DNA of 52,614 nucleotides from Coriobacteriia bacterium. Lineage in GTDB: Bacteria; Actinomycetota; Coriobacteriia; Anaerosomatales; PHET01. This document shows, one piece after another, positions 142-20,594 of the stretch. The stretch covers positions 1-52,614 of the forward strand of contig JAXMKZ010000034.1 in NCBI GenBank assembly GCA_034370385.1, written 5' to 3'. The position numbers and the translations under genes are program-made. Each line of letters opens with the position of its first letter. Positions within the stretch are counted from its first letter, which is position 1. The notes beneath the pieces were generated by a model. It did not search any database. It saw only the letters and a list, made by a program, of their open reading frames with translations, and was not told the DNA's origin.

Positions 142-142
142 G

Positions 143-2497: not shown

Positions 2498-2519
2498 CTC
2501 AGGTCTCGGTGGCGTGTGG

Positions 2520-2754: not shown

Positions 2755-2791
2755 AGAAATAGTATAACGACTTCTGCCGAGAGGTCCGTGC

Positions 2792-4479: not shown

Positions 4480-4504
4480 TGAATACCCCGACGAAGGAGT
4501 ACCG

Positions 4505-6184: not shown

Positions 6185-6275
6185 GCCTGACAGAGGAGCG
6201 ACGAGCGGACGGCGTCAGGTAGACTGCGGAAGAGAGGCGGTCGGCCAGCCGCCGCTCATTTCTGACACGTTGGGC
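6185..6275 (+). other. attC site 5
   Basis: GCCTGAC (6185-6191) to GTTGGGC (6269-6275). It contains GAGCGGACGGC, then GTCAGGTAGACT, then GCCGCCGCTCATTTC, matching the arms and inner element of attC 2. The right half-site fits GTTRRRY exactly. Confidence 0.78.
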
Positions 6276-6295
6276 AGAATTGCATCGGGGGAATC

Positions 6296-6502
6296 GTGGA
6301 CGTTTCCAGGGAGCAGGCTGTGGCGGCCTGCGAGCAGGTCAGGTCGGCCAACAGCCGGCGATATCTGAGCTTGAGTCATTGGCAGTGCTGGGGCTGCATG
6401 CGCTACAGCGGCGACGATCCGGCCAAGCGCTGCATGCACACCGACGTCGGCGGCTGGGACGCCTGCCCGCATGTGAACCGCTTGCTCGGATCACGGGCCT
6501 GA
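6296..6502 (+). CDS. Small four-cysteine protein, probable metal binder
   Basis: 68 residues from GTG 6296. Cysteines at about 31, 34, 46 and 57 (WQCWGCMRY, KRCMH, DACPHV) could bind one zinc ion or an iron-sulfur cluster. The rest is polar. It begins 20 bp after attC 5, the usual place for the first gene of a cassette. I do not recognise the family. Homologues annotated only as hypothetical would be expected. Confidence 0.55.
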   Translation: MDVSREQAVAACEQVRSANSRRYLSLSHWQCWGCMRYSGDDPAKRCMHTDVGGWDACPHVNRLLGSRA

Positions 6503-6670
6503 CGGGTTCTCGGCCTGTGCATTCGCCTGCCCAGTCAGCGCATCAACTCGACGCGACCCAGGTTGACGTATTCTGAGAGCGAACTGGCGCGCGGGCTTTG
6601 CGTAAACGCGTTCGACACAATCGGCCGGCGCTCGTGCGCGAAGACTGTCATGCTCCTGCTGGAGGGCCGC

Positions 6671-7306
6671 ATGTCCACAAGAATCGAGATGCTCCACGAG
6701 GTGCGCGACGAGGACCTGCTCCGTGCTGCAGCGACGTTGGCGCGCGCATTCGAGCATGATCCTGTCTGGGCCAGAGCATTCGAGGGTGTGCCTCGGGAGA
6801 CGATGGCGGCTTGGTTCGAGGGTCCGATTCGCTACTGCCGGGAGTTCGGGCGCGTCTACGCGACCTCAGAGAGGCTTGAAGGAATCGCTGGGGTGGTGCC
6901 CGGTGAGTATGCGCGTATGACCATGAGGCGCGCGATGCGGGCGGGCACCATGAAGATGGCCCCGCGCATGGGGCTGCAGCTGATGATGCGCGCGCCAAGA
7001 ATGATGCGCATGTTCGCGCCCCTCGACTCCGACCGAAAGAGGCATATGGGTGCGCGAGCGTTCACCTATGTCATGATCGTCGGCGTGGACCCCGAGCATC
7101 AACGGCAGGGACACGGCGGCGCGCTGCTTCGAGCGCTCATGGAGGAAAGCGACCGGATGGGGATCCCGTTGTACCTAGAGACGGAGACCGAGGAGAACCG
7201 ACAGATGTACGAGCACTACGGCTTCGATCTCCTCAGCGAGATCGCGCTTCCCGTCGTCGGGCTTCCCATGTGGGAGATGTTGAGGGAGCCGGCACTGTCG
7301 CGATGA
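6671..7306 (+). CDS. GNAT-family N-acetyltransferase
   Basis: 211 residues. The acetyl-CoA motif A is clear near residues 135-165: VDPEHQRQGHGGALLRAL (the Q/R-x-x-G-x-G/A loop), followed by a beta strand YLETETEENRQMYEHYGF typical of the GNAT C-terminal half. An Arg/Met-rich insert (about 75-125) precedes it. ATG 6671 is supported by GGAGGG (6661-6666); an ATG at 6650 has no RBS. The acceptor substrate is unknown; small-molecule or antibiotic acetylation is common for cassette-borne GNATs. Confidence 0.78.
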   Translation: MSTRIEMLHEVRDEDLLRAAATLARAFEHDPVWARAFEGVPRETMAAWFEGPIRYCREFGRVYATSERLEGIAGVVPGEYARMTMRRAMRAGTMKMAPRMGLQLMMRAPRMMRMFAPLDSDRKRHMGARAFTYVMIVGVDPEHQRQGHGGALLRALMEESDRMGIPLYLETETEENRQMYEHYGFDLLSEIALPVVGLPMWEMLREPALSR

Positions 7307-7361
7307 TGCGTCGAGCAAAGGCGACTCACGCGTCACACCGACGCTGACGGAAGAGAATCGC

Positions 7362-8075
7362 ATGGTCAGCGGAATCCGCAGGATCGACTTCGGCGTGAAC
7401 TGCTATCTCATCGATGCTGAGGGCGGCTACATCCTCATCGACACGAGCTTCCCGAGCAAGCAGGACAAGCTAGACGCCGAACTCGCCGCGGCAGGTTGCG
7501 GGCCCGATGGACTGCGCCTCATCGTCCTGACCCACGGCGATGTCGATCATGCGGGCAACAGTGCACATCTTCGCCGCACTCTGCATGCCCCCATCGCGAT
7601 TCATCGCAACGACGCCGAGATGGTGCGCAGCGGGGACATGGGCTCAGGCAGGAAGGACCAGCCCGACAGACACACGATCGCATTCAGGATCCTGACACGG
7701 GGCTCGGGGCTGCTGAACAAGTTCATGGGGGCGGGCGAGGGTTTCGAGGCTTTCGAGCCCGACGTGCTCCTAGAGGACGGGCAGGATCTCTCAGTCTATG
7801 GGCTCGACGCACGCGTGGTGCATCTTCCGGGCCATTCAAGCGGATCAATAGGCGTCGTCACGGGCGACGGCGACCTGTTCTGCGGCGATTTGCTCGTGAA
7901 CGTGACGAAGCCCTCAGTCCATTTCTACATAGACGACCTAGCCCGGGCGGATGAGAGTATTCGTAAGCTGAACGGCCTCGGGGTCGAGACCGTTCACCCC
8001 GGGCACGGCAAGCCGTTCCCGCTCGCACAGTTGCCGACCCAGGGCCGATCACGCGGTCGCTTCTTGCGGTCGTGA
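7362..8075 (+). CDS. Metallo-beta-lactamase fold hydrolase
   Basis: 237 residues. The metal site is complete: THGDVDHAGN (about 58-67, the HxHxDH-like motif), LPGHSSGSIGV (about 150), FCGDLL (about 170) and HPGHGKPF (about 211). Family members hydrolyse thioesters, lactones or phosphoesters, and a few are true beta-lactamases; substrate choice cannot be read here. The catalytic first His of the motif is replaced by Gly at one position (HGDVDH rather than HxHxDH), as in some MBL hydrolases. It shares a cassette with the GNAT gene. Confidence 0.8.
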   Translation: MVSGIRRIDFGVNCYLIDAEGGYILIDTSFPSKQDKLDAELAAAGCGPDGLRLIVLTHGDVDHAGNSAHLRRTLHAPIAIHRNDAEMVRSGDMGSGRKDQPDRHTIAFRILTRGSGLLNKFMGAGEGFEAFEPDVLLEDGQDLSVYGLDARVVHLPGHSSGSIGVVTGDGDLFCGDLLVNVTKPSVHFYIDDLARADESIRKLNGLGVETVHPGHGKPFPLAQLPTQGRSRGRFLRS

Positions 8076-8077
8076 GG

Positions 8078-8162
8078 TGCTAGCAAGCGCTTCCCGCCGA
8101 CACACGCACGCGCTAGGCTGAAAGGCGGCGCTTGTGTGCGGCTGAAACGCGACACGTTAGGA
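8078..8162 (+). other. attC site 6 (degenerate left half)
   Basis: TGCTAGC (8078-8084) to GTTAGGA (8156-8162). AAGCGCTTCCCGCCGACACACGC in the left arm is complementary to parts of GGCGGCGCTTGTGTGCG in the right arm. The left half-site has G in place of the expected A. Confidence 0.65.
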
Positions 8163-8165
8163 CGA

Positions 8166-8693
8166 GTGATCGGGGTGGGACGTCTGAACTCAACGGCTCT
8201 CTCTTCGGTGATTGCCCGCAATGGAGCGCTGTTGATCGTGCCTCCTTTGGTGATTTCGACCGGCTTGTGGGCGCGCCTCCCGGCGGCATTCGGCAACGAT
8301 GCTTTTGACCAAGGCATTCCTGCATGGCTGCTGATATCGGAGAACGCGCTGCGCGCCGCCGTACTCCTTCTTCCCGCATTGTTGCTTTTCGGCGCAACCG
8401 GACGACTGCAACGACTGGGCTGGATTCTGTACGGGCTAGGACTCATCTCCTATCTAGCGAGCTACGTGGTGTTGATTACTCTGCCAGCAAGCGCTTGGTC
8501 CTCGAGCGCACTCGGTTTCACTGCACCGGCATGGACGACCGGGTGGTGGCTCCTCGGCATCGGGCTAGTTTGCGCTGACACCTGGCTGCCCCTTTCATGG
8601 AGTCGCCTTATCTACCTGATACCGGCGGCGGGATTCGTCTTGACGCATTCGGCTCACGCTTGGCTTGCATACCTGCTTGTCCGACCGTCCTAA
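8166..8693 (+). CDS. Four-helix integral membrane protein
   Basis: About 175 residues with some four or five hydrophobic segments (ALLIVPPLVISTGLWARLP, AVLLLPALLLFGATG, YLASYVVLITLP and TGWWLLGIGLVCADTWLP). GTG 8166 directly follows attC 6 and fits the cassette layout; earlier in-frame codons overlap the attC. No catalytic motif was recognised. It is a one-gene cassette of unknown function. Confidence 0.6.
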   Translation: MIGVGRLNSTALSSVIARNGALLIVPPLVISTGLWARLPAAFGNDAFDQGIPAWLLISENALRAAVLLLPALLLFGATGRLQRLGWILYGLGLISYLASYVVLITLPASAWSSSALGFTAPAWTTGWWLLGIGLVCADTWLPLSWSRLIYLIPAAGFVLTHSAHAWLAYLLVRPS

Positions 8694-8768
8694 CAAGCAA
8701 CAGCGGACGGCGAGAGCTAGAATCAACCAGTAGGTCATGGGCCGCTGCTCATGCCCAACACGTTGGGC
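8688..8768 (+). other. attC site 7
   Basis: TCCTAAC (8688-8694) to GTTGGGC (8762-8768). It has AGCGGACGGCGAGAGCTAG in the left arm, and GGGCCGCTGCTCATGCCC then AACACGTTGGGC at the right. The stop codon of the membrane protein lies inside the left half-site. Confidence 0.8.
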
Positions 8769-8786
8769 CGAGCGTAGGAGGCTGCG

Positions 8787-8876
8787 ATGACGACCTACGT
8801 TATCGTTGCTGTCATCAGTGGGTGCTCTACGAGAGCCTGCCCGGGAGCAGCGGAGTGCTCCGGGGCGGGTCCGTGA
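8787..8876 (+). CDS. Possible 29-residue peptide
   Basis: An ATG at 8787 with GTAGGAGG just upstream opens a 29-codon frame (MTTYVIVAVISGCSTRAC and on). The strong RBS directly after attC 7 is the only support. It may be a remnant of a cassette gene cut short by a frameshift, or a leader for the downstream glutaminase. Confidence 0.3.
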   Translation: MTTYVIVAVISGCSTRACPGAAECSGAGP

Positions 8877-8921
8877 GGCGGATCTTCTCCGCCAGCACCG
8901 ATAACCGGGGAGGGTGATCGG

Positions 8922-9923
8922 ATGACGATAAGACGACGAGACACCGATGACGAGACCGTCTCGCGATTCGTGTCGACCGGCCGTTTGCCCACGGCCGATC
9001 TGGTCCGGTCGTACGTCGCAGAAGCACACGACCGGTATCTATCCACCACGGGCGGCGCCAACTCCCAAGTCTATCCGGCTCTGGCGGAAGCGGAGCCCGA
9101 CCTCTTCGGCATCTGCATCGTCGGCGTCGATGGTCAGGAGTATGCGGCAGGGGATGTGGACGCCGGCTTCGCGATCATGAGCGGCGCCAAGCCCTTCGTG
9201 TTCGCGCTTGTCTGCATGGCCATCGGATCCGAGGAAGCGCGGAATCTGATCGGCATGAATGCCACGGGTCTGCCGTTCAACTCACTGGCGGCCGTCGAGC
9301 GTGATGCTCAAGGCAAGACGAATCCAATGGTCAACGCGGGCGCCATCACTGCGACCAGTCTGGTTCCCGGCGACACGCCCGAAGACAAGTGGACCGTCAT
9401 CCAGGACGGGCTGTCGCGCTTTGCCGGGCGGCCGCTCTTCCTCGACGAAGGGGTGTTGCGTTCCGCCTCGGCGACCAACCATCGCAATCGGGCTATCGTC
9501 AACCTGCTCCGAGCTTATGGCAAGCCCTATTGCGACCCGGATGTGGCTTTGGATCTCTACACCAAGCAGAGCGCGCTGCTCGTGACCGCGAGGGATCTTG
9601 CGGTGATGGGGGCGACACTCGCGCACGGCGGCGTGAACCCGTTCACCGGGGAGCAGGTGGTCGGCACGGAAGCGTGTCGTCACACCCTGGCGGCGATGAT
9701 CACCGCGGGCCTCTACGAGACGTCCGGGGACTGGCTGTGGGACGTTGGCCTTCCTGGCAAGAGCGGCATCGGTGGTGGCATCATGACCGTGTCGCCCGGG
9801 AAGGGTGGGCTCGGGACATTCTCGCCTCCGCTGGACGCCGCGGGTAACAGTGTCAGGGGCCAGGCAGTCGCGCGCTTTCTCTCGTGCCGGCTGGGACTGG
9901 ACCTTCTGGCTTCGCCGAGTTAG
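8922..9923 (+). CDS. glsA: Glutaminase (GlsA family)
   Basis: 333 residues, close to the usual 300-330 of serine-dependent glutaminases that convert glutamine to glutamate and ammonia. Hallmarks: the SxxK catalytic pair in IMSGAKPFVF (about 87-96), PMVNAGAI (about 137), ATNHRNRAI (about 184), LYTKQSALLVTARDLA and PGKSGIGGGIM near the C-terminus. GGGGAGGG (8908-8915) precedes ATG 8922. It is a metabolic enzyme carried as cassette cargo. The gene stops in a GTTAGGC sequence that looks like a right attC half-site, possibly by chance. Confidence 0.88.
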   Translation: MTIRRRDTDDETVSRFVSTGRLPTADLVRSYVAEAHDRYLSTTGGANSQVYPALAEAEPDLFGICIVGVDGQEYAAGDVDAGFAIMSGAKPFVFALVCMAIGSEEARNLIGMNATGLPFNSLAAVERDAQGKTNPMVNAGAITATSLVPGDTPEDKWTVIQDGLSRFAGRPLFLDEGVLRSASATNHRNRAIVNLLRAYGKPYCDPDVALDLYTKQSALLVTARDLAVMGATLAHGGVNPFTGEQVVGTEACRHTLAAMITAGLYETSGDWLWDVGLPGKSGIGGGIMTVSPGKGGLGTFSPPLDAAGNSVRGQAVARFLSCRLGLDLLASPS

Positions 9924-9928
9924 GCCCG

Positions 9929-10060
9929 GTGCGAAGCGTCCACTGGCCTTGGCCCCAGTGGCGCATCTGCTTCCGGTTCGAGGATGGAGACGCCTACGAC
10001 GTCGAGATCCAGACTGCGGAAGAGAAGCGCGTGCGCCGCAGGTTCGGCCAAGCCTGTTAG
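9929..10060 (+). pseudogene. 3' fragment of a HigB/RelE-type toxin gene
   Basis: In one frame the sequence reads VRSVHWPWPQWRICFRFEDG and continues DAYDVEIQT. QWRICFRxEDGDAYDVEI is the conserved C-terminal part of HigB/RelE toxins. The first half of a normal HigB (about 90 residues) is absent. The last codons read into AGACTGCGGAAGAGAAG, which resembles the inside of attC 5, and end in GTTAGGA (10055-10061). This is a toxin gene remnant joined to half of an attC site. Confidence 0.6.
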
Positions 10061-10080
10061 GACGACGACGGGCGACAGCC

Positions 10081-10110
10081 TTAACGAGACCTGAGCGGCT
10101 CGCGTATAGT
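10081..10110 (+). promoter_or_regulatory. Promoter of the leader/efflux transcript
   Basis: TTAACG (10081-10086) and TATAGT (10105-10110) are separated by 18 bp. Transcription would begin near 10117, about 15 bases before the leader ATG at 10132 and 150 bases before the efflux gene. This leaves a long leader that holds the hairpins described separately. Confidence 0.5.
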
Positions 10111-10131
10111 AGCCTCGTTGCTCGAATCCTC

Positions 10132-10272
10132 ATGCGCATCAGGTTCAGGAGTCCAGAATGCAGTCTGCGCGTCTCCGCTAGCACAGAGACCCCGGTGGTC
10201 GGGGTCCGGACATCATCTCGCCGCCCCACCGGGGCGCGTCCGTCCGTGCCTTCCTTCTTGGAGATGTCATGA
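10132..10272 (+). CDS. Putative regulatory leader peptide with an Arg-x-Arg start
   Basis: 46 residues beginning MRIRFRSPE, then through the hairpin region and ending FLEMS. The stop overlaps the ATG of the efflux gene (ATGA). Macrolide-responsive leaders such as ErmDL contain MRLRFPT; the arginine-x-arginine motif stalls ribosomes holding macrolides. The match (MRIRFR) plus position and hairpins is the evidence. No good RBS is visible; a short 5' UTR or near-leaderless start is possible. The reading frame is longer than typical leaders, so translation past the first dozen codons may be incidental. Confidence 0.5.
   Translation: MRIRFRSPECSLRVSASTETPVVGVRTSSRRPTGARPSVPSFLEMS
10188..10236 (+). 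promoter_or_regulatory. Attenuator with mutually exclusive hairpins
   Basis: Hairpin A pairs GACCCCG (10188-10194) with CGGGGTC (10200-10206). Hairpin C pairs CGCCCC (10222-10227) with GGGGCG (10231-10236) and is followed by pyrimidine-rich CCTTCCTTCTT. Alternatively CCCCGGTGG (10190-10198) pairs perfectly with CCACCGGGG (10226-10234), which excludes both. A ribosome stalled at the start of the leader could change which forms. Confidence 0.55.
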
Positions 10273-11528
10273 ATACTCGAACTGACAGCTGGCTCCGCAC
10301 TTTCCTCATCATCTTTACCGGGCAGGCTTTCTCCCTACTGGGGAGTTCCGCGGTCAACTTCTCACTCGTGTGGTGGCTGACCGCTGAGACCGGTTCTGCA
10401 TCGATCCTCGCGTATGCCTCGATAGCGGCCATCCTGCCGCAGGCCCTTCTCGGACCAATCGCTGGCCCCTTCATCGACCGATGGGATCGACGACTCACGA
10501 TGATCGCCGCGGATCTGATGATCGCGGCAACGAGTGTCTGGCTCTTGCTCGCGTTCGCAGAAGGTGCACCGTCGGTCACGGCCATCATGCTCACTATCGG
10601 GCTGCGGTCCGCGTGTGCCGCCTTCCACACTCCGGCGAGCCAGGCGGCGGTTCCCATGTATGTGCCTTCGGACCAGCTGATGCGAGTCGCCGGATGGAAC
10701 TTCTTCATGAGCTCGGGTGTGGCGATGGCCGGACCGGTGCTGGGGGCCTTCATGATGGCGGCCACGTCGGTCTCGGTAGTCATGATGGTCGACATTCTCG
10801 GGGCTGGGATTGCCGTCGCATCGCTCCTGATGGTACGCATTCCCAACCCCCAGAGAGATGAGAGCGATTCAGAGCACATCGACTTCGTCGTCGAGTTCGT
10901 CGATGGCTGGCGAGAGCTGATTCGACACAGAGGGCTGTTCGATCTGACGCTCGTGCTCGCGATGGTCACGCTTCTGTATATGCCGCTCAACGCGCTGTTC
11001 CCGTTGATGACGTTCTCGCACTTCGGCGGAGATGCGGCCGCTGCGAGCTACGTCGAGGTCGCGTTCGGGGCGGGGATGCTCGTCGGGTCGATGGCGATCG
11101 GCGTGATGTCACAGCGCTACTCAGGAGTTCAGCTTATCGGCGCGGGCATCCTTCTTGTCGGCGGCATGCTCGCGGCTTCTGGCCTGCTCCCGACATCTGC
11201 GTTCTGGGTCTTCGTTTTGATGTGCGTGGCGATGGGCTTCTCGGTTCCGCTCTTCGGCGCTCCGATCACGGCGATGTTTCAAGGGCTCATCGACCCAACG
11301 AAGCTAGGGCGTGTCATGTCGCTCTACATGACCATCGCCATGCTTGCGGCACCGATCGGGTTGCTGGTGGCCGGTCCGCTGGCAGAACGGGTGGGTGTGG
11401 CTTGGTGGTTCGCGATCTCGGGCGTGCTCATTGCGGTGATGGGGCTCTTGGTCTGGCTACTCCCGGCGGTTCGCGAGCTCGATGCGGCCATGGTCCTTGC
11501 GACCTCCGAACCGGCGGCTGACAAGTAG
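10269..11528 (+). CDS. MFS drug exporter, Mef-like macrolide efflux family
   Basis: 419 residues with about 12 transmembrane segments. SWLRTFLIIFTGQAFSLLGS at the start and GPIAGPFIDRWDRRLTMI (loop 2-3, the MFS motif A region, about 60-78) follow the pattern of Mef(A) and related MFS_3 exporters. It exports a small hydrophobic compound by proton antiport; macrolides are suggested by the family and by the leader upstream. ATG 10269 overlaps the leader stop, with TTGGAG just before. It is a single-gene cassette bounded on the right by attC 9. Confidence 0.75.
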   Translation: MNTRTDSWLRTFLIIFTGQAFSLLGSSAVNFSLVWWLTAETGSASILAYASIAAILPQALLGPIAGPFIDRWDRRLTMIAADLMIAATSVWLLLAFAEGAPSVTAIMLTIGLRSACAAFHTPASQAAVPMYVPSDQLMRVAGWNFFMSSGVAMAGPVLGAFMMAATSVSVVMMVDILGAGIAVASLLMVRIPNPQRDESDSEHIDFVVEFVDGWRELIRHRGLFDLTLVLAMVTLLYMPLNALFPLMTFSHFGGDAAAASYVEVAFGAGMLVGSMAIGVMSQRYSGVQLIGAGILLVGGMLAASGLLPTSAFWVFVLMCVAMGFSVPLFGAPITAMFQGLIDPTKLGRVMSLYMTIAMLAAPIGLLVAGPLAERVGVAWWFAISGVLIAVMGLLVWLLPAVRELDAAMVLATSEPAADK

Positions 11529-11534
11529 CAAGCG

Positions 11535-11616
11535 TCCTGACACGGGCATCGAGCAGAACACCAGGAGGTAGACTGACCTGCGAGGGCATGCGCGTCTGCT
11601 CATGCCTACGTTAGGC
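11535..11616 (+). other. attC site 9
   Basis: TCCTGAC (11535-11541) to GTTAGGC (11610-11616). GGGCATCGAGCAGAACACC in the left arm and GGTAGACTGACCTG in the centre match attC 1 and attC 11 almost base for base. GCGCGTCTGCTCATGCC forms the right arm. (Number 8 is reserved for the half-site fused to the HigB remnant.). Confidence 0.8.
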
Positions 11617-11645
11617 GCACGGCACGATCATGAAAGGACCAGACG

Positions 11646-12527
11646 ATGGTTGACACGGGGCTATCAGGTCGGGTCGCTCTGGTGACCGGCGCGAATCACG
11701 GAATCGGCGCGGCGATAGCCGTGGCACTGGCGCGCGAAGGCGCGAGGGTGCTCATCACGTACTTGCGCCAGAGTCCCGACGTCTACATGGTCGCCCCCGA
11801 GGACGCGGAGGCCGCAGCGAGTCCAGGAAGCGCCTACTATGCCCGCGAGATCGCACAGACGTCCGAATCCGTGGAGGCCGCGATCGCCGCATTCGGCGGC
11901 GTATGCGCAGCGCGCGAAGCCGACCTCGCAGACGCACAATCGATTCCGCTGCTGTTCGACGCGGCGGAGAGTGAGTGGGCGGGTGTCGACATCCTGGTGA
12001 ACAATGCGGCACTCGCTATCCCTGACACGTTTCTTCCTGATTCGATCCTCGGCGATGAAGCCACATTCGCGGACGAATACACCCTCAGGACCCTGACTGT
12101 TGAGGGCCACGAGGAGCACTTCGCCGTCAACAGCCGTGCGGTCGCGCTGATGATGGCCGAGTTTGCACGGCGCTCCATTAAGCGTGGCGGCACATGGGGT
12201 CGCATCATCAACATATCCACCGACGGGTCTTACTGTCATCCGTCGAACGTTTCGTACGGTGCGAGCAAGCACGCAGCTGAGAGCTTCACCCGCTCTGCTG
12301 CCGTTGAGCTCGGCCCCTACGGAATCACCGTGAATGCGATCTCGCCCGGTGCGGTTCAGACCGGCTGGATGACCCCCGAGTTCGAACGCGATATCGCCGC
12401 TGGCTACCCGCTTGGCCGAATCGGACAACCAGAGGACATCGCGGATGCAGCGGTCTTTCTGGCCTCGGAGCAGGCCGGGTGGATCACGGGACAGATCCTG
12501 AACGTTGGTGGCGGGAATCGGATGTGA
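11646..12527 (+). CDS. Short-chain dehydrogenase/reductase
   Basis: 293 residues. A Rossmann NAD(P) motif TGANHGIGAA (about 14-23), ILVNNAAL (about 117) and the catalytic YGASK (Tyr about 205) with a Ser upstream (NISTDGS) are all present. The C-terminus GWITGQILNVGGG is typical of FabG-like SDRs. The family oxidises or reduces a hydroxyl/keto group; the substrate is unknown. An insert of about 45 residues after the second strand (VYMVAPEDAEAAASPGSA) is longer than in FabG. ATGAAAGGA precedes ATG 11646. A fragment of a close paralogue occurs at 15757. Confidence 0.85.
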   Translation: MVDTGLSGRVALVTGANHGIGAAIAVALAREGARVLITYLRQSPDVYMVAPEDAEAAASPGSAYYAREIAQTSESVEAAIAAFGGVCAAREADLADAQSIPLLFDAAESEWAGVDILVNNAALAIPDTFLPDSILGDEATFADEYTLRTLTVEGHEEHFAVNSRAVALMMAEFARRSIKRGGTWGRIINISTDGSYCHPSNVSYGASKHAAESFTRSAAVELGPYGITVNAISPGAVQTGWMTPEFERDIAAGYPLGRIGQPEDIADAAVFLASEQAGWITGQILNVGGGNRM

Positions 12528-12679
12528 GCGACCTGCTACTACTCGTCGCTGTAATCGCTGCGGGAATGGGAATCTGGGCAGCCATAACCAAGTCGAGGCG
12601 GCTTGCGATCACAGCGGGAGTGCTTGGGGGCGGTGCGCTTCTGGTCGTCGGGGGGATACTGCTCGCCATCCGGCTCTAG
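12524..12679 (+). CDS. Small two-helix membrane protein
   Basis: 51 residues from GTG 12524, which overlaps the SDR stop (GTGA). Two hydrophobic segments (LLLLVAVIAAGMGIWAAI and AGVLGGGALLVVGGILLAI) are joined by a short basic loop TKSRR, a hairpin membrane protein. Coupled translation with the SDR suggests they are co-expressed. I do not recognise a family. Confidence 0.55.
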   Translation: MSDLLLLVAVIAAGMGIWAAITKSRRLAITAGVLGGGALLVVGGILLAIRL

Positions 12680-12692
12680 GCTGTAGCGCGGC

Positions 12693-12780
12693 ACCTAACC
12701 AGGACATCAACCTGACGGCCAGAAGCGTCACGGTTGACACCGCAAGCGCTCAGGCCGCAGGTTATGCCTGAACACGCGAG
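12693..12780 (+). other. attC site 10 (degenerate)
   Basis: ACCTAAC (12693-12699), then AGGACATCAACCTGACGGCC. The right end CAGGTTATGCCTGAACACGCGAGGG matches the usual GCTCATGCCTAACACGTTAGGG but the GTT is changed to GCG. It is probably no longer a good recombination substrate. The right boundary is approximate. Confidence 0.5.
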
Positions 12781-12796
12781 GGAGAACGGGAGTCCG

Positions 12797-13537
12797 GTGA
12801 GGGGAGCACGCGCGACAGTGGCCTTGCTCGTCGCGAGTCTGTGTGTCGGCACGGCGTGCACCGCGCCCCGCCAGTCGGGCTCGACTCCCGATGTTGTCAT
12901 CGTGGGTTTCGGCGACAGCATAGTGTATGGCTCCAACTACCCGAAGCCCTGGCTGTACACCCTGCTTGAGCGCCTCACCAGCGTCCCGATCACGTACGTG
13001 CCGGAGTGGCCTTGGGACTGGGATGCTCCAAGCACTCGCCATGACCGCTGGTATGAATCGGGCGGCGTGCGCGTCTACAACAGCGGTATCGATGGAAACA
13101 CAACCGCGCAGCTGCTCTCTCGGTTCGAAGAGGACGTCGCGGCGGTGAAGCCCGACAGCTGTCTGATTCTCGGCGGGACGAACGACATCTTTCGAGGCGT
13201 TCCCCTCTCCACTATCGAGGCCAATCTCACCCAGCTCTACGACGACTGCGCCGAAGCCGGCATCACTCCGGTCGCGTGCACCCTGACGCCGGTCAAGCAG
13301 GGGTTCCTCCTCGGCGACTCTGCTGATGCGGATGCCCTCAACTCGTCGATCGACACACTCAACGCGTGGATCAGGACTCACTGCGCGGAGCGCAGCATCG
13401 CCGTCGTTGACTTCAATACCGTGCTGAAGGCGGATCCGGCGACCTACCTTCAGGATGACGGCATTCACCCCAGCGAGGCGGGCCATGATGCAATGGGTCG
13501 CTCAGTAGACCTGGCTGTGCTGGGCCTTGCTCGTTAG
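12797..13537 (+). CDS. SGNH/GDSL hydrolase, exported
   Basis: About 246 residues. A hydrophobic leader TVALLVASLCVGTAC near the N-terminus suggests export, perhaps as a lipoprotein although the box is not canonical. Catalytic blocks: FGDSIVYGS (Ser, about 40), NSGIDGNTTAQLL (block II), GGTNDIFRG (about 130, block III) and DGIHPSEAGH (Asp-His, about 222). This is an esterase or lipase of unknown substrate. GTG 12797 follows a GGGAG; an in-frame ATG at 12764 overlaps attC 10 and is less likely. Confidence 0.78.
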   Translation: MRGARATVALLVASLCVGTACTAPRQSGSTPDVVIVGFGDSIVYGSNYPKPWLYTLLERLTSVPITYVPEWPWDWDAPSTRHDRWYESGGVRVYNSGIDGNTTAQLLSRFEEDVAAVKPDSCLILGGTNDIFRGVPLSTIEANLTQLYDDCAEAGITPVACTLTPVKQGFLLGDSADADALNSSIDTLNAWIRTHCAERSIAVVDFNTVLKADPATYLQDDGIHPSEAGHDAMGRSVDLAVLGLAR

Positions 13538-13561
13538 CAGTGGGAGCTTACCGTCGCGTCT

Positions 13562-13645
13562 GCCTGACAAGCGCAGCGCAGAACGCCAGAAGGTAGACTG
13601 ACCTGAACGCGCATCGGCGACTGCTCATGCGCAACCACGTTGGGC
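13562..13645 (+). other. attC site 11
   Basis: GCCTGAC (13562-13568) to GTTGGGC (13639-13645). AAGCGCAGCGCAGAACGCC, then GGTAGACTGACCTG, then GGCGACTGCTCATGCGC are near copies of attC 1 and attC 9. Confidence 0.82.
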
Positions 13646-13712
13646 GGACCAGCACTGAGCACCGCGACGGAAGGCTGCGGGCGACTAACTGGACTCGGCG
13701 GAGGAGGGTGTC

Positions 13713-14294
13713 GTGGAGGTAGAGCGTAGGCATCGCATCATGCTCGCGATCGGCGTCGTACTTGTGGCAATGCCCCTCATGGGTTGCGCTCTTCTCAACG
13801 CAATCGAGAGGGGGAACGATAACTTCAAGAAGGATGACCCACCCGCTGTCCAGCTCGACACAGGGGAAGGCATCATCGCTTCTGAAGGCGCGGCCCCTCA
13901 AGACGAGACTGCGGCAGAGGTGGACGCATCCGTTCTGTTCGACAACCAGAACATCCTTGCGGTCCAGAACGGCGGGACGTCACCGACATTCGAGCTTTCT
14001 TCGGCCACCGTCATCGCCAAGATCCAGACGTATCATTGGAACGACGCCATCGGAAACAGCTCCACCGGCACGATCTCGCTGAAATCGGATGACGGGACCG
14101 TGTACGGGCCCTGGGAGACCGTAGGGGCAGAAGGACAGGGTGGCGTGACCAACGCCTACTGGGCAGCCAGCCCCAACGTGAAGCTTCCGGCTGGCCGGTA
14201 CACAGTGATTGATTCCGACCCGAGCACGTGGTCACAGAACGCAGACTCTGGCGGAGAGGGTTTCGTGATCGTGTATGCGCGGGCTGCCCCGTAG
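13713..14294 (+). CDS. Lipoprotein of unknown function
   Basis: 193 residues from GTG 13713 with GGAGGAGGG upstream. Residues about 8-25 form a signal sequence that ends in a lipobox LMGC (AIGVVLVAMPLMGC), so the mature protein would be lipid-anchored. The rest (FDNQNILAVQNGGTSPTFEL, then WETVGAEGQGGVTNAYW) looks like a beta-sandwich domain such as a carbohydrate-binding or discoidin-like fold, which is only a guess. It is a one-gene cassette. Confidence 0.65.
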   Translation: MEVERRHRIMLAIGVVLVAMPLMGCALLNAIERGNDNFKKDDPPAVQLDTGEGIIASEGAAPQDETAAEVDASVLFDNQNILAVQNGGTSPTFELSSATVIAKIQTYHWNDAIGNSSTGTISLKSDDGTVYGPWETVGAEGQGGVTNAYWAASPNVKLPAGRYTVIDSDPSTWSQNADSGGEGFVIVYARAAP

Positions 14295-14309
14295 CGATTG
14301 CGTGCAGCG

Positions 14310-14372
14310 GCTCAACAATGAGATGAGCCGACTCGCTTCGCTCTCGGCTTATCTCGCCTCACCCAACGAGGC
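14310..14372 (+). other. attC site 12, short type unlike the rest
   Basis: GCTCAAC (14310-14316), then GAGATGAGCCGA, a loop CTCGCTTCGCTC, TCGGCTTATCTCGCCT and a degenerate right end CAACGAGGC (14364-14372). The inner arms pair well. The AGCCGA...GCTTCG...TCGGCTTA core is that of the classic 60 bp attC sites of proteobacterial mobile integrons. The other sites here lack it. Confidence 0.6.
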
Positions 14373-14588
14373 AAGAATGTGACAACCATGCCGATAATGG
14401 GCACCTCATAGTATGGACCCAGCCATTATCACGGTTCTCTCACGATTCTCGTCGCCACGGTGGCTGCGCTCGTTCTCGAGGCCGTCCGCATAGACGTCGT
14501 TGCGCTTGTCTGTACGCGCCGGTTCGTGTCATTGGATCTTTGGATTCCCGACCTCGACGGCGCGCATCGCGCAACTGGAGGAGAGAGC

Positions 14589-15743
14589 GTGGACGCACTC
14601 GGCAAAGACCTCGCTGATGGACTTTTTGAGAATTGCGACCCGCCCTGCCTTTCGCTCTACCAGCCCACGCATCGGCACCGTCCGGACAATGAGCAAGATC
14701 GAATCCGGTTCGGGATCCTTGTGAAGGCGCTGGAGGAATCGCTCCTGCGGACAGTCCCGAAGAGAGAGGTCCCGCCATTGCTGGAGCCGTTCTTGGCATT
14801 GGCGGATGACCGCGACGTGTGGAACCATACCCTTGACGGACTGGCGGTGCTGGGCGCAAAGGGAGTGTTTCGAGTCTACAGACTGCAGCGGCCCGTCGCC
14901 GAACTGGCCGTAGTGGCGGACAGCTTCCATCTCAAGCCCCTGATGCGCATTCTTCAGTCAGCCGACCGTTATCAGGTTCTCGGCGTGAACCGACGGGAGG
15001 CCAGACTCTTCGAAGGTAATCGTGACGCCTTTGACGAGATCGCACTGCATCGGGATGTGCCACGCACGCTCACGGATGCACTGGGGGAGGAGCTGACCGA
15101 GCCGCACCTTACCGTCGCCTCCTATGGCGGCGCAGGTGGATCCCAGGCGTCCATGCACCATGGCCACGGGGGGAAGGAAGCAGAGGTGGACATCGATACG
15201 GAACGCTTCTTCCGCGCCGTTGACCGGGGAGTCCTTGAGCATCACTCGCAGCCGTCGGGCTTGCCACTGATTCTAGCCGCGCTCCCCGAGCACCATCATC
15301 TATTTCGCGAAGTGAGCGGTAATCCGTTCCTGATACCGGAGAGCATCGATACTCATCCGGATGCCCTCTCGTCAACTGACGAGCTCCGAGAGCGCGTCTG
15401 GCAGCTCATGGAGCCTCGGTACCTGGCGCATCTGGCCGCACTGGTCGAGGAGTTCGGCACCGCACGCTCCGAGGGGCTCGGGGATGACGATCTGGCTCAG
15501 GTCGCCAGGGCGGCTGTTGGTGGACGGGTGGCTACAGTGCTGATCGAGGCCGAGCGCGAGATTCCCGGACGCGTGGATACAGCGACCGGCGATATCGAGC
15601 CTGGCGACCTGGCGCACCCCGAGTTTGATGACGTGCTCGACGACCTCGGCACGCTGGTGGCGAAGATGGGCGGAAACGTCGTTATCGTACCGACCGAACA
15701 GATGCCGACGGAGAACGGAATAGCTGCGGTCTATCGCTACTGA
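14589..15743 (+). CDS. BaeRF-like protein (bacterial eRF1-related family)
   Basis: About 384 residues. The N-terminal half holds CLSLYQPTHRHRPDNEQDRI and RFGILVKALEESL, the signature of the bacterial archaeo-eukaryotic release-factor-like group (BaeRF family 3). The C-terminus (LGTLVAKMGGNVVIVPTEQM) is the L7Ae-like part seen in this group. These proteins are thought to act on ribosomes or stalled translation, but the biochemical role is unproven. GTG 14589 is chosen because GGAGGA (14577-14582) lies 6 bases upstream; a longer frame from 14460 has no RBS. Confidence 0.68.
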   Translation: MDALGKDLADGLFENCDPPCLSLYQPTHRHRPDNEQDRIRFGILVKALEESLLRTVPKREVPPLLEPFLALADDRDVWNHTLDGLAVLGAKGVFRVYRLQRPVAELAVVADSFHLKPLMRILQSADRYQVLGVNRREARLFEGNRDAFDEIALHRDVPRTLTDALGEELTEPHLTVASYGGAGGSQASMHHGHGGKEAEVDIDTERFFRAVDRGVLEHHSQPSGLPLILAALPEHHHLFREVSGNPFLIPESIDTHPDALSSTDELRERVWQLMEPRYLAHLAALVEEFGTARSEGLGDDDLAQVARAAVGGRVATVLIEAEREIPGRVDTATGDIEPGDLAHPEFDDVLDDLGTLVAKMGGNVVIVPTEQMPTENGIAAVYRY

Positions 15744-15756
15744 GGGCCAGCAGACT

Positions 15757-15803
15757 ATTCGCGGACGAATGCACCCCCAAGACCCTGACTATCGAGGGCC
15801 ATG
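15757..15803 (+). pseudogene. Fragment of an SDR gene
   Basis: This stretch matches the SDR gene at about 12065-12111 closely (the stem GCGGACGAAT is shared, then ACCCTGACT and GAGGGCCA). By eye about 40 of 47 bases agree. Translated it gives a degenerate form of FADEYTLRTLTVEGH. The rest of the gene is missing, so it is a remnant left by recombination, not a separate gene. Confidence 0.6.
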
Positions 15804-15841
15804 GGCCGATGGGTACTGCATTTCGGGGATTGGGGGACTCT

Positions 15842-16099
15842 ATGGCGGAGCCCAAGCTCAGCAGGGCGCAGGCGCGCGGAGCTCTCGTCTACAGTTTCGT
15901 TGGTTTCGTTGTCTGTGTCTGGCTCCTGAGGCTCATCCTGGTCGGCGATTGGGAGGGCGTTGTCTACACGAGTGCCGGGCAGGTGGTCGAACTGCAGTTC
16001 TTCTTCGTCATCGGCGCCATCGGTGCCGCGGGGGCCTTCTTCAGCATGCTCGATGACGCTTTTCCGGGTATCTGGAGGTCGTTGTCACGCCGCCGGTAG
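15842..16099 (+). CDS. Small two-helix membrane protein
   Basis: 85 residues from ATG 15842. Two hydrophobic segments (ALVYSFVGFVVCVWLLRLIL and LQFFFVIGAIGAAGAFFS) flank a short polar stretch, and the tail is basic (RSLSRRR). An earlier ATG at 15809 would add 11 residues that overlap the SDR remnant region; GGGG before 15842 is weak support. No family recognised. Confidence 0.5.
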   Translation: MAEPKLSRAQARGALVYSFVGFVVCVWLLRLILVGDWEGVVYTSAGQVVELQFFFVIGAIGAAGAFFSMLDDAFPGIWRSLSRRR

Positions 16100-16110
16100 T
16101 CTCCAGCACG

Positions 16111-16197
16111 GCCTAACCCGCGCGTCCAGTCGACGGCGCAGGCGGTAGTCCACGAAGTCGGGCGTACGGCCGTGGCTGAAGCGAAATAGCGTTAGCC
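16111..16197 (+). other. attC site 13
   Basis: GCCTAAC (16111-16117), an exact match to RYYYAAC, to GTTAGCC (16191-16197). It carries CAGTCGACGGCGCAGGCGGTAG and CGGCCGTGGCTGAAGC. The arms are more diverged from attC 1 than are attC 9 and 11. Confidence 0.72.
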
Positions 16198-16230: not shown

Positions 16231-16881
16231 ATGGCGAAGATCACAGGCGGCATGCGGGAGCGGCTCGATGGCATCATCGGATTCATCCGGTCGTTCATGG
16301 GGGCTCGCGAGTTCGAGACCGACGCCCCTGGAGGTTGTAGTCCGCGGCTCATGCTCGGCCTGGTCATTGGGCTGGCGGTCATCATCACTCTGTATGTGAC
16401 CGGCGTAATCGCCTACGACTTCACGCTGACCCCTGCCGAGCGGGCTGCGGTTGACGCAGCCGGGCCAACGGATGGTGATACTGCTGCAGACTCCGGCGTC
16501 GACCCGCAGCTTCCCGGCGAGCCATACCTGGACGGCCGCCACTACGCGATCATCGGGACGGGAGATGCCGGCACGAGTCGCGTCTACACCATCGAGCTCC
16601 TCGGCGAGGGCGACAGCGGGGCCATCCGCGTCTGGGAGGACGACACCGGCCGGGGCACCTATACGATCGCTGAGGGCTCGATCCGCATCGAGATGGAGCG
16701 GATGGTGCCACCGGAGGACCCTGCTGGATGGGAGCCGAACGTCTTCGAGGGCACGATCTCCTCGGATGAATCTCGCATCGAGGGGACGTGGACGCGCCGG
16801 GGCTGGTTCCGAGACGCCCACGCGGGCACATTCGAACTGGAAGACTGGACCGACTACGGCTGCTACGCCGAGCGTCTCTAG
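16231..16881 (+). CDS. Membrane-anchored protein with an extracytoplasmic domain
   Basis: 216 residues. One transmembrane segment (LMLGLVIGLAVIITLYVTG, about 50-68) follows a short basic cytoplasmic N-terminus. The C-terminal part (about 85-216) is acidic and rich in beta-strand patterns (TYTIAEGSIRIEMERM, GTISSDESRIEGTWTRRG), resembling lipocalin-like or extracytoplasmic beta domains. Function unknown. It starts 33 bp after attC 13. GGGAAGCGAG before ATG 16231 is a modest RBS. Confidence 0.58.
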   Translation: MAKITGGMRERLDGIIGFIRSFMGAREFETDAPGGCSPRLMLGLVIGLAVIITLYVTGVIAYDFTLTPAERAAVDAAGPTDGDTAADSGVDPQLPGEPYLDGRHYAIIGTGDAGTSRVYTIELLGEGDSGAIRVWEDDTGRGTYTIAEGSIRIEMERMVPPEDPAGWEPNVFEGTISSDESRIEGTWTRRGWFRDAHAGTFELEDWTDYGCYAERL

Positions 16882-16906
16882 ATGCGTGCACACTGCGGGA
16901 GAGTCC

Positions 16907-16972
16907 CGCTGACATCCGTCTCACGGCAGGGCGCACGGTGTCCTGCGTTGGACCGTGCGACAATAGTTAGCA
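16907..16972 (+). other. Possible short attC site 14
   Basis: CGCTGAC (16907-16913) to GTTAGCA (16966-16972). GCTGAC and GTTAGC can pair with one wobble. An inner stem GCGCACGGT/ACCGTGCG lies between. It lacks the GGTAGACT element of the other sites. It could be the final site of the array. Confidence 0.4.
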
Positions 16973-16992
16973 GCCGCTGATGAGGAGTCCGC

Positions 16993-18453
16993 ATGCCAGC
17001 TGTCCCGCGTTGCATGAGCACACAGCACCCCGATAACGCGACCGTTCCGTTCTTCGCCACGTCGGGCGTACTCGCCGGGGAAGACGAGATTCGCGAGGCG
17101 TTCTACGCCTACTCGCACTTGGGGTGCGATGAGCAGATGTGGGACGTCGAGGGCAAGGAGATCGACACCTACGTCGTCAAGAAGCTGCTGTCCTTCTACC
17201 CCGAGTACTTCCGCGATCACGTGCTGGGTGAGGACCTGCGGCTCACGTTGCGAGTCCCGAATCCGACGGTGGAAACGACCGAGGCGAAGATCCTCCTCGA
17301 GACTCTGGAGAGCATTCCGCGGTCCTATGACGCGGCTCGGCTCTTCTACGGACGTGATGTCGCACCGATCTTCGAAGTGATTCTCCCCATGACGACCTCG
17401 GCGAAGTGCATCGATCGCATCTACCGCTACTACGTGGACCACATCGTGGACAGACAACACACCCGGTTCCGCGGTGACGACATAAGCATCGCGGAGTGGA
17501 TCGGCGAGTTCTCGCCTTCGAGCATCGAGGTGATCCCGCTGTTCGAAGACGTGCCGACCATGGTGCGGGCGGCGGACATCGTCGAGGAGTACCTCTCTGA
17601 CAAGACCGTCAGCGACCAGCGGGTGTTCTTGGCTCGCTCCGACACGGCGATGAACTATGGGCTTGTCTCAGCCGCGCTCGCGAATAAGATCGCGCTCTAC
17701 CGACTGGACGAGTTGTCCGCCCGTTCCGGCGTGCGACTTCATCCGATCATGGGGATGGGCTCCGCCCCATTTCGTGGTGGGTTGTCTCCGGCCACGGCGG
17801 AGCGGGTCGGCAAGGAGTATCCAAGCGCAGTGACGTTCAGCATCCAGTCGGCCTTCAAGTTCGATCACCCCCCGGAAGAGGTGAGGGCCGCATGCGAACT
17901 CCTCAAGACGCGAGTGATCGAGCAAGCGACGCCGGTTGATGTTGAGCGTGCCTCAGCGGTAATCGAGCGGTACAGTGATGCGTATCGACGGCGGGTTGTT
18001 GAACTGGCCCCAGCTATCAACCGCATGGCGAGGTTCGTACCCGCCCGCCGGGCTCGCAAGCTGCATATCGGGTTGTTTGGCTACGCGCGCGAACTCGGCG
18101 GAGTGACGCTTCCAAGGGCCATCTCGTTTACGTGCTCGCTCTACTCCCTGGGGCTGCCCCCGGAGTTGATTGCCTTCGACGCCCTGAGCCAGAGCGACCT
18201 CGCTTTCGTGCGCGAGGCTTACCCATCTTTCGAGGCGAAGGTCAGCGAAGCACTGTCCTTCACCGACTTCGATGGGCCACTGATGACGAGCACGCTCAGA
18301 GCCTCTCTGGAGCGCGCCGGCTATGGCTTCGAGCCGAACCAGGAGCATCTCGAGTTGGTGCGCAGAATGCGCATCGCACTTGATGAAGGCGATACGTCAC
18401 AACTGACGGACCTGGTGTCTCGCGCCGCTATTCTTAGACGGTTTCTCGGCTGA
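16993..18453 (+). CDS. ppcA: Archaeal-type phosphoenolpyruvate carboxylase
   Basis: 486 residues, matching the about 490-residue archaeal PEPC (PpcA), far shorter than the 900-residue bacterial Ppc. It carboxylates PEP to oxaloacetate with bicarbonate. Family-typical blocks include MSTQHPDNATVPFF at the start, MGMGSAPFRGGLSPAT near residue 255 and GYARELGGVTLPRAISFT near residue 365. TGAGGAG lies upstream of ATG 16993. It is anaplerotic and would feed oxaloacetate to the TCA branch, complementing PPDK at 42.3 kb. It sits between two attC-like sequences, so it may be cargo or old chromosome. Confidence 0.9.
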   Translation: MPAVPRCMSTQHPDNATVPFFATSGVLAGEDEIREAFYAYSHLGCDEQMWDVEGKEIDTYVVKKLLSFYPEYFRDHVLGEDLRLTLRVPNPTVETTEAKILLETLESIPRSYDAARLFYGRDVAPIFEVILPMTTSAKCIDRIYRYYVDHIVDRQHTRFRGDDISIAEWIGEFSPSSIEVIPLFEDVPTMVRAADIVEEYLSDKTVSDQRVFLARSDTAMNYGLVSAALANKIALYRLDELSARSGVRLHPIMGMGSAPFRGGLSPATAERVGKEYPSAVTFSIQSAFKFDHPPEEVRAACELLKTRVIEQATPVDVERASAVIERYSDAYRRRVVELAPAINRMARFVPARRARKLHIGLFGYARELGGVTLPRAISFTCSLYSLGLPPELIAFDALSQSDLAFVREAYPSFEAKVSEALSFTDFDGPLMTSTLRASLERAGYGFEPNQEHLELVRRMRIALDEGDTSQLTDLVSRAAILRRFLG

Positions 18454-18466
18454 TAGGATTCGGACG

Positions 18467-19012
18467 ATGAGTACTGACTATGTCGTCCGGCTGGCCGGCC
18501 CCGAGCACGTCGACCAGCTACCCGCCATCGAGCGCGCGGCAGCCACCAGGTTCGGCGACTCGCTACCTGAATCCGTGCTTTCGCATGTCACCCCGGTGGA
18601 CCATCTGGCGGCAGCACAACAGGCGGGTCTACTCTGGGTGGCTCTCGAACCGACGGGTGCCCCTGTGGGATTCGCTGTGGCCAGCGTCGGCGGACGGCGC
18701 GTGCACCTCGAGGAACTCGATGTGCTGCCTGAGCACGGCCGCAAGGGGATAGGGTCGGCGCTCGTGCAAGCCGTCGAGGACTACGCGCTCAAGAGCGACT
18801 GCACCGAGATCACGCTTACCACGTTCCGCGACGTAGCGTGGAATGCGCCGTTCTATGCTCGCGTCGGTTTCGAGGCCATACCAGAGCAGGAGCTCGATGC
18901 GGAGCTCATTCGCCGGCTCTCAGAGGAGACCGCCCTGGGCCTAGAACGTTCTAGGCGGGTGGCGATGCGCAAGCCGCTCAGCTCACCGCCTTCTTCACCA
19001 GCGTGGCAATAG
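18467..19012 (+). CDS. GNAT-family acetyltransferase
   Basis: 181 residues. [20 protein letters not shown] (about 82-101) is the acetyl-CoA-binding motif A with the R-K-G-I-G loop. [24 protein letters not shown] (positions about 108-131) gives the following strand and helix. The target is unknown. It starts 13 bp after the PEPC gene, in the same direction, and its 3' end overlaps the next, convergent gene by 35 bp. Confidence 0.78.
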
Positions 19013-19415
19013 TCGCCTCGTCCGTGGCGGTCAGCTGAGTCAGCGCGTAGGAGGTCGGCCACATCGTGCCTGCGTCGAGTCGTGCCTCCTGATCGAAGCC
19101 GAACGTTGCATACCTAGCGTTGAACTTCGCTGCCGCCTGAAAGAAGCAGACGATCTTGCCGTCCTTGGCATACGCGGGCATCCCGTACCAGGTCTTCGGG
19201 GTGAGTTCCGGTGCAGTGGCTTTGACAATCTCGTGAATCCGCTCAGCGATGAAGCGATCCGGTTCCGGCATCTCGGCGATCTTGGCGAGCACATCGCGTT
19301 CCCCGGCCGCCCGGTCCTTGTTCGCGCGCGCTTCAGCCTTGAGTTCCTTTGCGCGCTCCTTCATCGCGGTCCGTTCCTCGTCGGTGAATCCCTCAGACGT
19401 GCCGGTCTTTGCCAT
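18978..19415 (-). CDS. DUF1801/YdhG-like protein
   Basis: 145 residues on the minus strand, the only complete minus-strand gene I accept. After a lysine/alanine-rich helical N-terminus ([19 protein letters not shown]), [20 protein letters not shown] and [19 protein letters not shown] match the DUF1801 (YdhG/YdeI) fold, a small alpha/beta protein of uncertain role. The start at 19415 is preferred because GGAGGGGAG lies just upstream on this strand; a longer frame to 19508 has no RBS. A shorter relative occurs at 30160. Confidence 0.75.
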
Positions 19416-19565
19416 TCGGACTCCCCTCCGTGTCGGGGCCTTCACGGCCGCACGCCCAGTCACTGCATGGATCGTGCGGCTTGACACTGCTTCGAGGCTA
19501 CTGCCCACGAGTCACGGTTGGCAAACACTCGTTGGGGCCTCACGGCCGCTTAGCGTGCGCTATCG

Positions 19566-19656
19566 CGTACCGCGAGCGCGAAGAGCCCCGGGGGAAGGCG
19601 TCAGGTAGAATCTGCCGGAGCGATACGGGCCGCCGCTCCCGTGCACGACGTTTCGA
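19566..19656 (+). other. Relic attC-like sequence 15
   Basis: AAGGCGTCAGGTAGAATCTG (19595-19614) and GGCCGCCGCTCCCGTGCACGACG match the inner element and right arm of attC 5 and attC 1. The right half-site reads GTTTCGA and the left half-site is not recognisable. A further GTTGGGG preceded by AAACACTC (19524-19537) may be the end of yet another site. It shows that the array once reached this far. Confidence 0.5.
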
Positions 19657-19688: not shown

Positions 19689-20594
19689 ATGCAGCCCAAG
19701 GATCTACGCCGCTACATCAAGGCCACCGAGCGCACCGTCGACCCCGCGACGGTGGCGATGAGAGTCCAGGGCATCGGCATCCTGCGCAAACTGCCGCAGC
19801 GACTCCAGCACTACATCATCGAGCGCGGCTCGCGTACCGACCCGTATATGAGCTTCGTCGTCGAGCCCTACGCGACCTTTCTTGCGTTCGAGATCGTCGA
19901 CACGGAGGCGGCCGGACGATTGCTGCCCCCGGGGTACTCCCTTCACCCGTCGGCGATGTTCAGCGACACTCCGCAACGACTGTGCGCGATCGTGAGTGCA
20001 TTCACCGTGCACACGAATGTCTTCTGGGGGAGCCGTGTGGAGTTCTACCTCATCGCGGAGAACCGCGAGACGGGGATGCTGTCGTGGGTGATAGGAGAGT
20101 ACGAGAGCAACGCGCATAGCTACGACCCCAGCCGGGGATTCACCCTGCCGAGCACCTCGCGTTCGGTGGTCACGACATCGTATCGGGGCGAGGTCATCGT
20201 CGACGTCGCCAGCAAGGACTCCGGCAATGCCCTGGAGCTGCTCGCCGATCTGTCAGGCGGTTCGTTCGCCGAGCTCGACCAACGACTGTGGGTCGAAGGC
20301 AACCTGTCGGTTGACTACGGCGGAGAGCTGCAGCAGTGCACGAAGCCGTTCAGCTTGGTATTTGATCCCGGCGAGATGGAGAAGGCCCTCAAGTTGCCGC
20401 TTGACGCCGTCTCGCTGTGCACCAACACCTTTGGACGCGACATGCTCGATTCCGAGCCGTTCGAGGTCGCGGTCTTCCCGTACGCACAGCACTTCGTCAC
20501 GACCAGTTTCCCCACGGGCACTTCGATGCGCACGACCGAGGACCTGGAGCGTGCCGTGGGCGAGCTCAATGAGCGACTCAACTCATCCGCCTAG
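19689..20594 (+). CDS. Acetoacetate-decarboxylase-like protein, function unknown
   Basis: 301 residues. The segments AGRLLPPGYSLHPSAMFSD (about 75-94) and RVEFYLIAENRETGMLSW (about 118-135) resemble the acetoacetate decarboxylase-like fold, but the catalytic Lys context is not evident, so activity is uncertain. ATG 19689 is preferred, with GGAG about 15 bases and GAGG about 4 bases upstream; a longer frame from 19641 overlaps the attC relic. It runs 3 bp before the next gene and is probably co-transcribed with it. Confidence 0.5.
   Translation: MQPKDLRRYIKATERTVDPATVAMRVQGIGILRKLPQRLQHYIIERGSRTDPYMSFVVEPYATFLAFEIVDTEAAGRLLPPGYSLHPSAMFSDTPQRLCAIVSAFTVHTNVFWGSRVEFYLIAENRETGMLSWVIGEYESNAHSYDPSRGFTLPSTSRSVVTTSYRGEVIVDVASKDSGNALELLADLSGGSFAELDQRLWVEGNLSVDYGGELQQCTKPFSLVFDPGEMEKALKLPLDAVSLCTNTFGRDMLDSEPFEVAVFPYAQHFVTTSFPTGTSMRTTEDLERAVGELNERLNSSA

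Follow-up and report, generated by a model that had tools for sequence, protein, structure and literature searches.

An archaeal-type phosphoenolpyruvate carboxylase gene as a probable former integron cassette in the decayed distal end of a chromosomal integron

The DNA analysed here, called the window, is the entire contig C34 (52,614 nucleotides) of a Coriobacteriia genome of the order Anaerosomatales (G000; 2.69 Mb in 65 contigs). It carries an integron cassette array and, beyond it, a gene for an archaeal-type phosphoenolpyruvate carboxylase (PEPC). The attC sites were located with R1, a covariance model built on an alignment of 14 clear sites with paired classical R and L boxes, eight from the window and six from L039, a locus in another family of the same order. 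A homemade R''/R' detector had recovered only one of the clear sites of the window and the covariance model was used instead. With filters off, R1 gave 13 plus-strand matches of at least 24 bits in the window, five of them held out from training (6184-6275, 1593-1678, 12692-12782, 19557-19655 and 6528-6616), and the next best match reached 13.2 bits and lay outside the array region. An alignment of 15 sites displayed the R''/R' and L''/L' pairing of the attC fold, with standard pairs in 11-15 of the 15 sites at 17 of 19 positions and compensatory changes in the L and inner stems; two outer R pairs were standard in only 8 and 6 of the 15 sites. An Rfam search of the window gave no match. The features around the PEPC gene are the following:

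142..16197, plus strand: integron cassette array, with 12 of the 13 plus-strand R1 matches of at least 24 bits
16110..16197, plus strand: last intact attC before PEPC (R1 58.5 bits, training site), with R''/R' and L''/L' pairing
16231..16881, plus strand: ORF of no known function, placed after the last intact attC and ahead of PEPC, with no attC behind it
16896..16992, plus strand: leader of PEPC, containing a conserved -10-like stretch (CCGTGCGACAATAG), homologous to the leader of the L039 cassette
16993..18453, plus strand: archaeal-type PEPC, 486 aa (PF14010, TIGR02751)
18467..19012, plus strand: GNAT acetyltransferase (PF00583, 59.6 bits), a single-gene cassette in relatives
about 18978..19418, minus strand: DUF1801-like gene in convergent orientation to GNAT (PF08818, 26.6 bits, marginally below the cut-off of 27.2)
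19557..19655, plus strand: decayed attC (R1 24.7 bits, E 2e-4 over the window, held out)
19689..20594, plus strand: gene of no known family, without Pfam match

The initial annotation had described the array, the archaeal-type PEPC and, beside it, a GNAT gene and a minus-strand DUF1801 gene, and all of these were recovered. The integron integrase of the genome is encoded on a contig other than the window (C15), which ends 376 bp after intI; it matches TIGR02249 with 456.1 bits (cut-off 265) and the narrower model NF011946 with 348 bits, under the cut-off of 435. Across nine contigs of G000 we counted 50 R1 matches. In the order as a whole, attC sites were detected by R1 in 63 of 69 genomes, as against 2 of 30 other class members, and an attC-bearing contig of G004, the genome that contains L039, gave an integrase match interrupted by a single TGA. 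Within the array of the window lies a full glutaminase gene (8922-9923; PF04960, 323.8 bits), a further metabolic enzyme and probable cassette cargo; the other cargo includes a MazE-like/PIN pair (316-899), an RNA repair protein of the RlaP family (3103-4479) and a baeRF family 3 gene (14460-15743). Elsewhere, in G045, three long ORFs between two attC sites make up a cassette of about 5 kb (L042:978-5929); by eye they resemble a restriction-modification set with methylases and a helicase-like protein.

The PEPC of the window matches its family over the full length (TIGR02751 577.9 bits against a cut-off of 146, PF14010 599 against 25), and its sole match among solved structures is the PEP carboxylase 3odm of the PDB. 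Judging from its family, the enzyme would form oxaloacetate from PEP and bicarbonate. The gene is present in a single copy, and no second PEPC was found in the genome. Comparison with the L039 copy gave a dN of 0.071 and a dS of 0.829 (NG86), and the resulting dN/dS of about 0.09 indicates that the protein is under purifying selection. The composition of the gene (GC 61.4%, GC3 77.6%) matches that of its neighbours and therefore gives no sign of a foreign origin.

The last intact attC (16110-16197) ends 795 bp before PEPC, and searches with the intervening ORF at 16231-16881 against Pfam and NCBIfam found no match. A possible attC, numbered 14, had been proposed at 16907-16972 in the initial annotation. 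We rejected it, as this stretch belongs to the PEPC leader and is recognisable before PEPC in relatives. R1 gave no plus-strand match there, nor did it when the search was restricted to 16198-22000 with filters off, and the one overlapping match lay on the minus strand with 4.1 bits (E 8). Moreover, the GTTAGCA of the proposed site is not conserved, since the aligned leaders read ACAATAGTTAGCAG in the window, ACAATGGGCTGTGC in L039 and ACAATAGACAGCAG in G009. The leader motif itself is CCGTGCGACAATAG in the window and in G009 and CCGTGCAACAATGG in L039, and similar stretches are found in G011 and G059. From its resemblance to a -10 region the leader (16896-16992) may serve as a promoter; a sigma-70 scan of 16100-20700 gave no promoter.

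Directly after PEPC, in the 13 bp up to the GNAT start, R1 found no match either, so that in the window no attC follows the gene as it would in a cassette. Only part of the claim that two attC sites flank PEPC could be upheld: of the two sites whose scores were to be checked, attC 14 fails the model and the downstream relic passes weakly. Upstream of the block stands the intact attC at 16110-16197 and downstream the relic at 19557-19655, and three other genes lie alongside PEPC between them. That no attC touches PEPC, together with the local composition, speaks for an alternative in which PEPC is a resident gene at the distal edge of the array and cassettes accumulated beside it. In this case the relic on the far side would belong to the GNAT and DUF1801-like genes alone, and the L039 copy would have become a cassette independently, from a similar gene.

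The genes behind PEPC are themselves of the cassette type in relatives; the GNAT gene, its pairing with the DUF1801-like gene and the 19689 gene all occur in arrays of other families. In G043 the GNAT gene is an exactly flanked cassette (L143: attC 2334-2421, GNAT, attC 2953-3041), and in G052 (L141) it is immediately followed by an attC at 9211-9296 on the minus strand; the homology of the window gene to both copies begins at 18465-18466. The pair of GNAT and convergent DUF1801-like gene recurs in G064 (L142), where the DNA block corresponding to 18465-19416 is 87% identical. At L142:1035-1070 (minus strand) what appears by eye to be a left attC half is joined straight to the GNAT gene, possibly an intermediate of the fusion that the window displays.

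The degenerate site that follows this pair corresponds to the relic attC 15 of the initial annotation, which had been placed at 19566-19656. Both its R'' and its R' box are broken and its best-preserved part is GGCGTCAGGTAGAATC. It could thus be argued that this stretch is the promoter region of the 19689 gene, resembling an attC only through the GGTAGAAT/GGTAGACT motif that the attC sites of the order share, and at L149, where no attC is present, a similar TAGAAT stretch can be seen by eye upstream of the gene. However, the 24.7 bits of the relic are far above the best match outside the array (13.2 bits), and its position agrees with that of an attC in G045 (L151 12352-12459) that precedes the same next gene by 28 nt. 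We therefore regard the promoter explanation as quite unlikely. Matches to the 19689 gene were obtained in 16 of 70 genomes, counting G000 itself but no other member of its family (three genomes); the gene lies among attC sites in G045 and G017 and without attC in G028.

Among the matches listed, the nearest PEPC to that of the window is the one of L039 (88% identity), and in the PEPC tree the two are grouped with a support of 100/98. The carriers of close PEPCs among named relatives are Coriobacteriia and Anaerosomatales MAGs. L039 is the MAG contig JAQIBK010000179.1 (contig C7 of G004), in which PEPC forms a single-gene cassette:

283-383, same strand as PEPC: attC before PEPC (66 bits, training site)
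481-1941, same strand as both attC sites: PEPC, in a single-gene cassette of about 1.65 kb
1972-2032, same strand as PEPC: attC after PEPC (41.9 bits, E 4.6e-8), held out, as it had been left out of the training of R1

One attC thus lies directly behind the gene and another directly before its leader, and more cassettes follow downstream. This is the one clean PEPC cassette that was found, known from a single assembly of a 6.6 kb MAG contig. The homology between the window and L039 extends from about 97 nt upstream of the ATG, which is the edge of the L039 cassette, to about 10 nt past the stop codon; beyond these limits, in nt 98-200 upstream and from nt 14 behind the stop codon onwards, the alignment gave no homology. 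In the leader 70 of 104 alignment columns are identical, and the z-scores upstream of the ATG were 7.2 for nt 1-45, 3.2 for nt 46-70 and 2.1 for nt 46-97, scores reached by 0, 1 and 18 of 500 shuffles, respectively. As the homology ends at the edges of the L039 cassette, the conserved unit is this cassette minus its attC.

We propose, with a probability of roughly 0.7, that the PEPC of the window is a former integron cassette, now fixed where a chromosomal integron has decayed at its distal end. It most likely shares a cassette ancestry with the L039 copy and arrived as a cassette. The entry as a cassette had already been suggested in the initial annotation; the L039 cassette and the cassette-limited homology support it, which is evidence of another kind than was offered at the time. 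The original cassette would have comprised PEPC, a leader of about 97 nt belonging to the gene and a downstream attC, an arrangement still intact in L039, and would have been placed at attI or an attC of the array by the integron integrase. The attC sites that would once have stood at both PEPC junctions may later have been deleted, fusing the gene to the preceding ORF and to the following GNAT cassette, while the attC after the GNAT and DUF1801-like genes would have decayed to the relic at 19557-19655. What can be seen in the window today are the missing and the broken attC sites. PEPC would now be fixed because its adjoining attC sites were lost, no longer excisable alone and kept under purifying selection. 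The data are compatible with a transfer from the window lineage to that of L039, with the reverse or with a third source.

Within the order, 32 of 69 genomes carry an archaeal-type PEPC; G000 is one of them, and the three remaining members of its family have none. Given this spread and the many phyla among the matches listed, the earlier view that only a few bacterial groups are known to have this enzyme no longer holds. Outside the order, 11 of 30 class members gave only weak PEPC matches inside frames of more than 900 aa, which are probably of the bacterial type; in a search of 11 genomes, G000 included, no bacterial-type PEPC scored above the cut-off. Gene order, which the initial annotation had suggested comparing, was followed in a scan of named genomes from which 80 of 274 PEPC loci were kept. 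Of 25 window genes (two of them, a CPBP gene and a methyltransferase, misframed) none was found near PEPC in these loci with one exception, an SGNH hydrolase gene that lies about 2.5 kb away from it in L042, seen once. We rejected chromosomal synteny for PEPC on this lack of conserved neighbours.

The inheritance of PEPC was compared with that of DnaG in the 19 genomes having both genes, and over the 171 pairs the identities correlated with an r of 0.20. The PEPC identity of G000 and G004, 88.0%, was the highest of all pairs, whereas their DnaG proteins are just 55.6% identical. The PhoH of G000, by comparison, is 88% identical to its counterpart in G001, a member of its own family, and 74% to that in G004. 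PEPC is patchily distributed, does not track DnaG and follows a non-vertical pattern. HPPase was tried as a species yardstick and dropped because it does not itself follow kinship (47% to the same-family G003 versus 92% to the other-family G028). The HPPase gene of G000 (46619-48718) reaches up to 92% identity to family f4, and within its own family 85% to G001, 73% to G002 and 47% to G003. The pnt transhydrogenase genes of the window (26868-29744) precede phoH and were not found beside it in L135-L140, some of which are very short.

Across the order, an attC was found within 6 kb of PEPC in 6 of 29 whole or nearly whole loci. Upstream and on the same strand it lies in G000, G004, G009, G011 and G045, and in G037 it is located 2.1 kb downstream of a divergent PEPC. 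In the other 23 loci no attC was found within 6 kb, several of the flanks being shortened by contig ends, and no attC accompanies the three PEPC gene fragments in G027, G034 and G066. As 4.0% of G000 lies within 6 kb of an attC, the probability of at least 6 of 29 at that rate is about 9e-4, a value that we take as no more than supportive, since the loci are not independent and the attC content of the other genomes differs. A match just after PEPC in G009 (L216 11283-11323, 6.5 bits) was too weak to count, and a Hydrogenedentota copy (L048) appeared attC-like by eye and gave nothing with R1. The wider PEPC clade takes in other phyla, in which R1, a model tuned to this order, found no attC.

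In G009, G045 and G011, PEPC is found outside the array, 4.0-5.5 kb beyond its last same-strand attC, as would be expected of a resident gene. Nevertheless, a resident PEPC is hard to reconcile with its absence from the three other genomes of the family, with neighbours that are not conserved, with a cassette copy from another family that is far closer than DnaG leads one to expect, and with attC sites or their remains and cassette-type genes on both sides of the gene. An array that grew beside or, as had also been suggested initially, over a resident PEPC consequently explains less than the cassette origin, and we consider it unlikely. PEPC might also have been moved by an insertion sequence, a transposon, a conjugative element or homologous exchange, with the proximity to attC sites being secondary. 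The gene moves widely, outside arrays too, and the DNA after PEPC in G011 (L215:1-380) resembles a cassette stretch of the window at about 2630-2720, by eye a possible transposase or insertion sequence end. Such a vehicle is nonetheless very improbable, as the homologous block equals the L039 cassette and no PEPC was found in 72,556 plasmid records or in viral contigs.

Building on the cassette origin, one may tentatively ask more of these data. It is conceivable, if rather doubtful, that integrons are a recurrent route for PEPC exchange between the families of this actinobacterial order, with a self-promoted cassette being picked up, carried and frozen at the distal end of an array by attC loss. 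If true, such a route would go some way towards accounting for the mismatch between PEPC and species relationships in the order, and for the location of PEPC in or beside array ends in G000, G004, G009, G011 and G045. Integrons are best known for spreading accessory genes, and their cargo consists mostly of defence, mobile and no-known-function genes. With PEPC in a decayed array and its nearest relative in a complete cassette, a core metabolic enzyme appears to have been moved by this accessory-gene system. Where a cassette bears the one PEPC detected in a genome, integrons seem able to transmit a core carbon-fixing step that then settles, and the loss of neighbouring attC sites is a candidate route from accessory cassette to resident gene.

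Compared with other archaeal-type PEPCs (TIGR02751/PF14010; PDB 3odm), the enzyme of the window is alike over its full 486 aa and an otherwise ordinary member that differs in its genomic setting. In the literature covered, which contained few subscription papers and no preprints, we came across neither a PEPC cassette nor integrons of Coriobacteriia or Anaerosomatales; the one paper that names integrons, gene cassettes and PEPC together deals with a Corynebacterium genome. A survey of RefSeq genomes found no complete integron in Actinobacteria (PMC9024848), while Actinobacteriota are listed among the integron-bearing phyla in another study (PMC8618304). According to a metagenome survey, carbohydrate metabolism is among the most depleted cargo classes of integrons, with an odds ratio of 0.158 (PMC7370490). 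For the array of Vibrio sp. DAT722, cassettes of primary metabolism are listed, e.g. for beta-phosphoglucomutase, with no PEPC in the passages covered (PMC1382264). The array described here resembles sedentary chromosomal integrons in the paired R''/R' and L''/L' folds of its attC sites, in cassettes running in one direction, in an integrase encoded in the genome and in its GNAT, toxin-antitoxin and no-known-function cargo. It differs from them in that the cargo includes a central-carbon enzyme with its own leader, that the attC sites adjacent to PEPC are lost in the window and that the host belongs to an actinobacterial order. The integron mechanism is already known, whereas the PEPC cargo and the host group are unusual.
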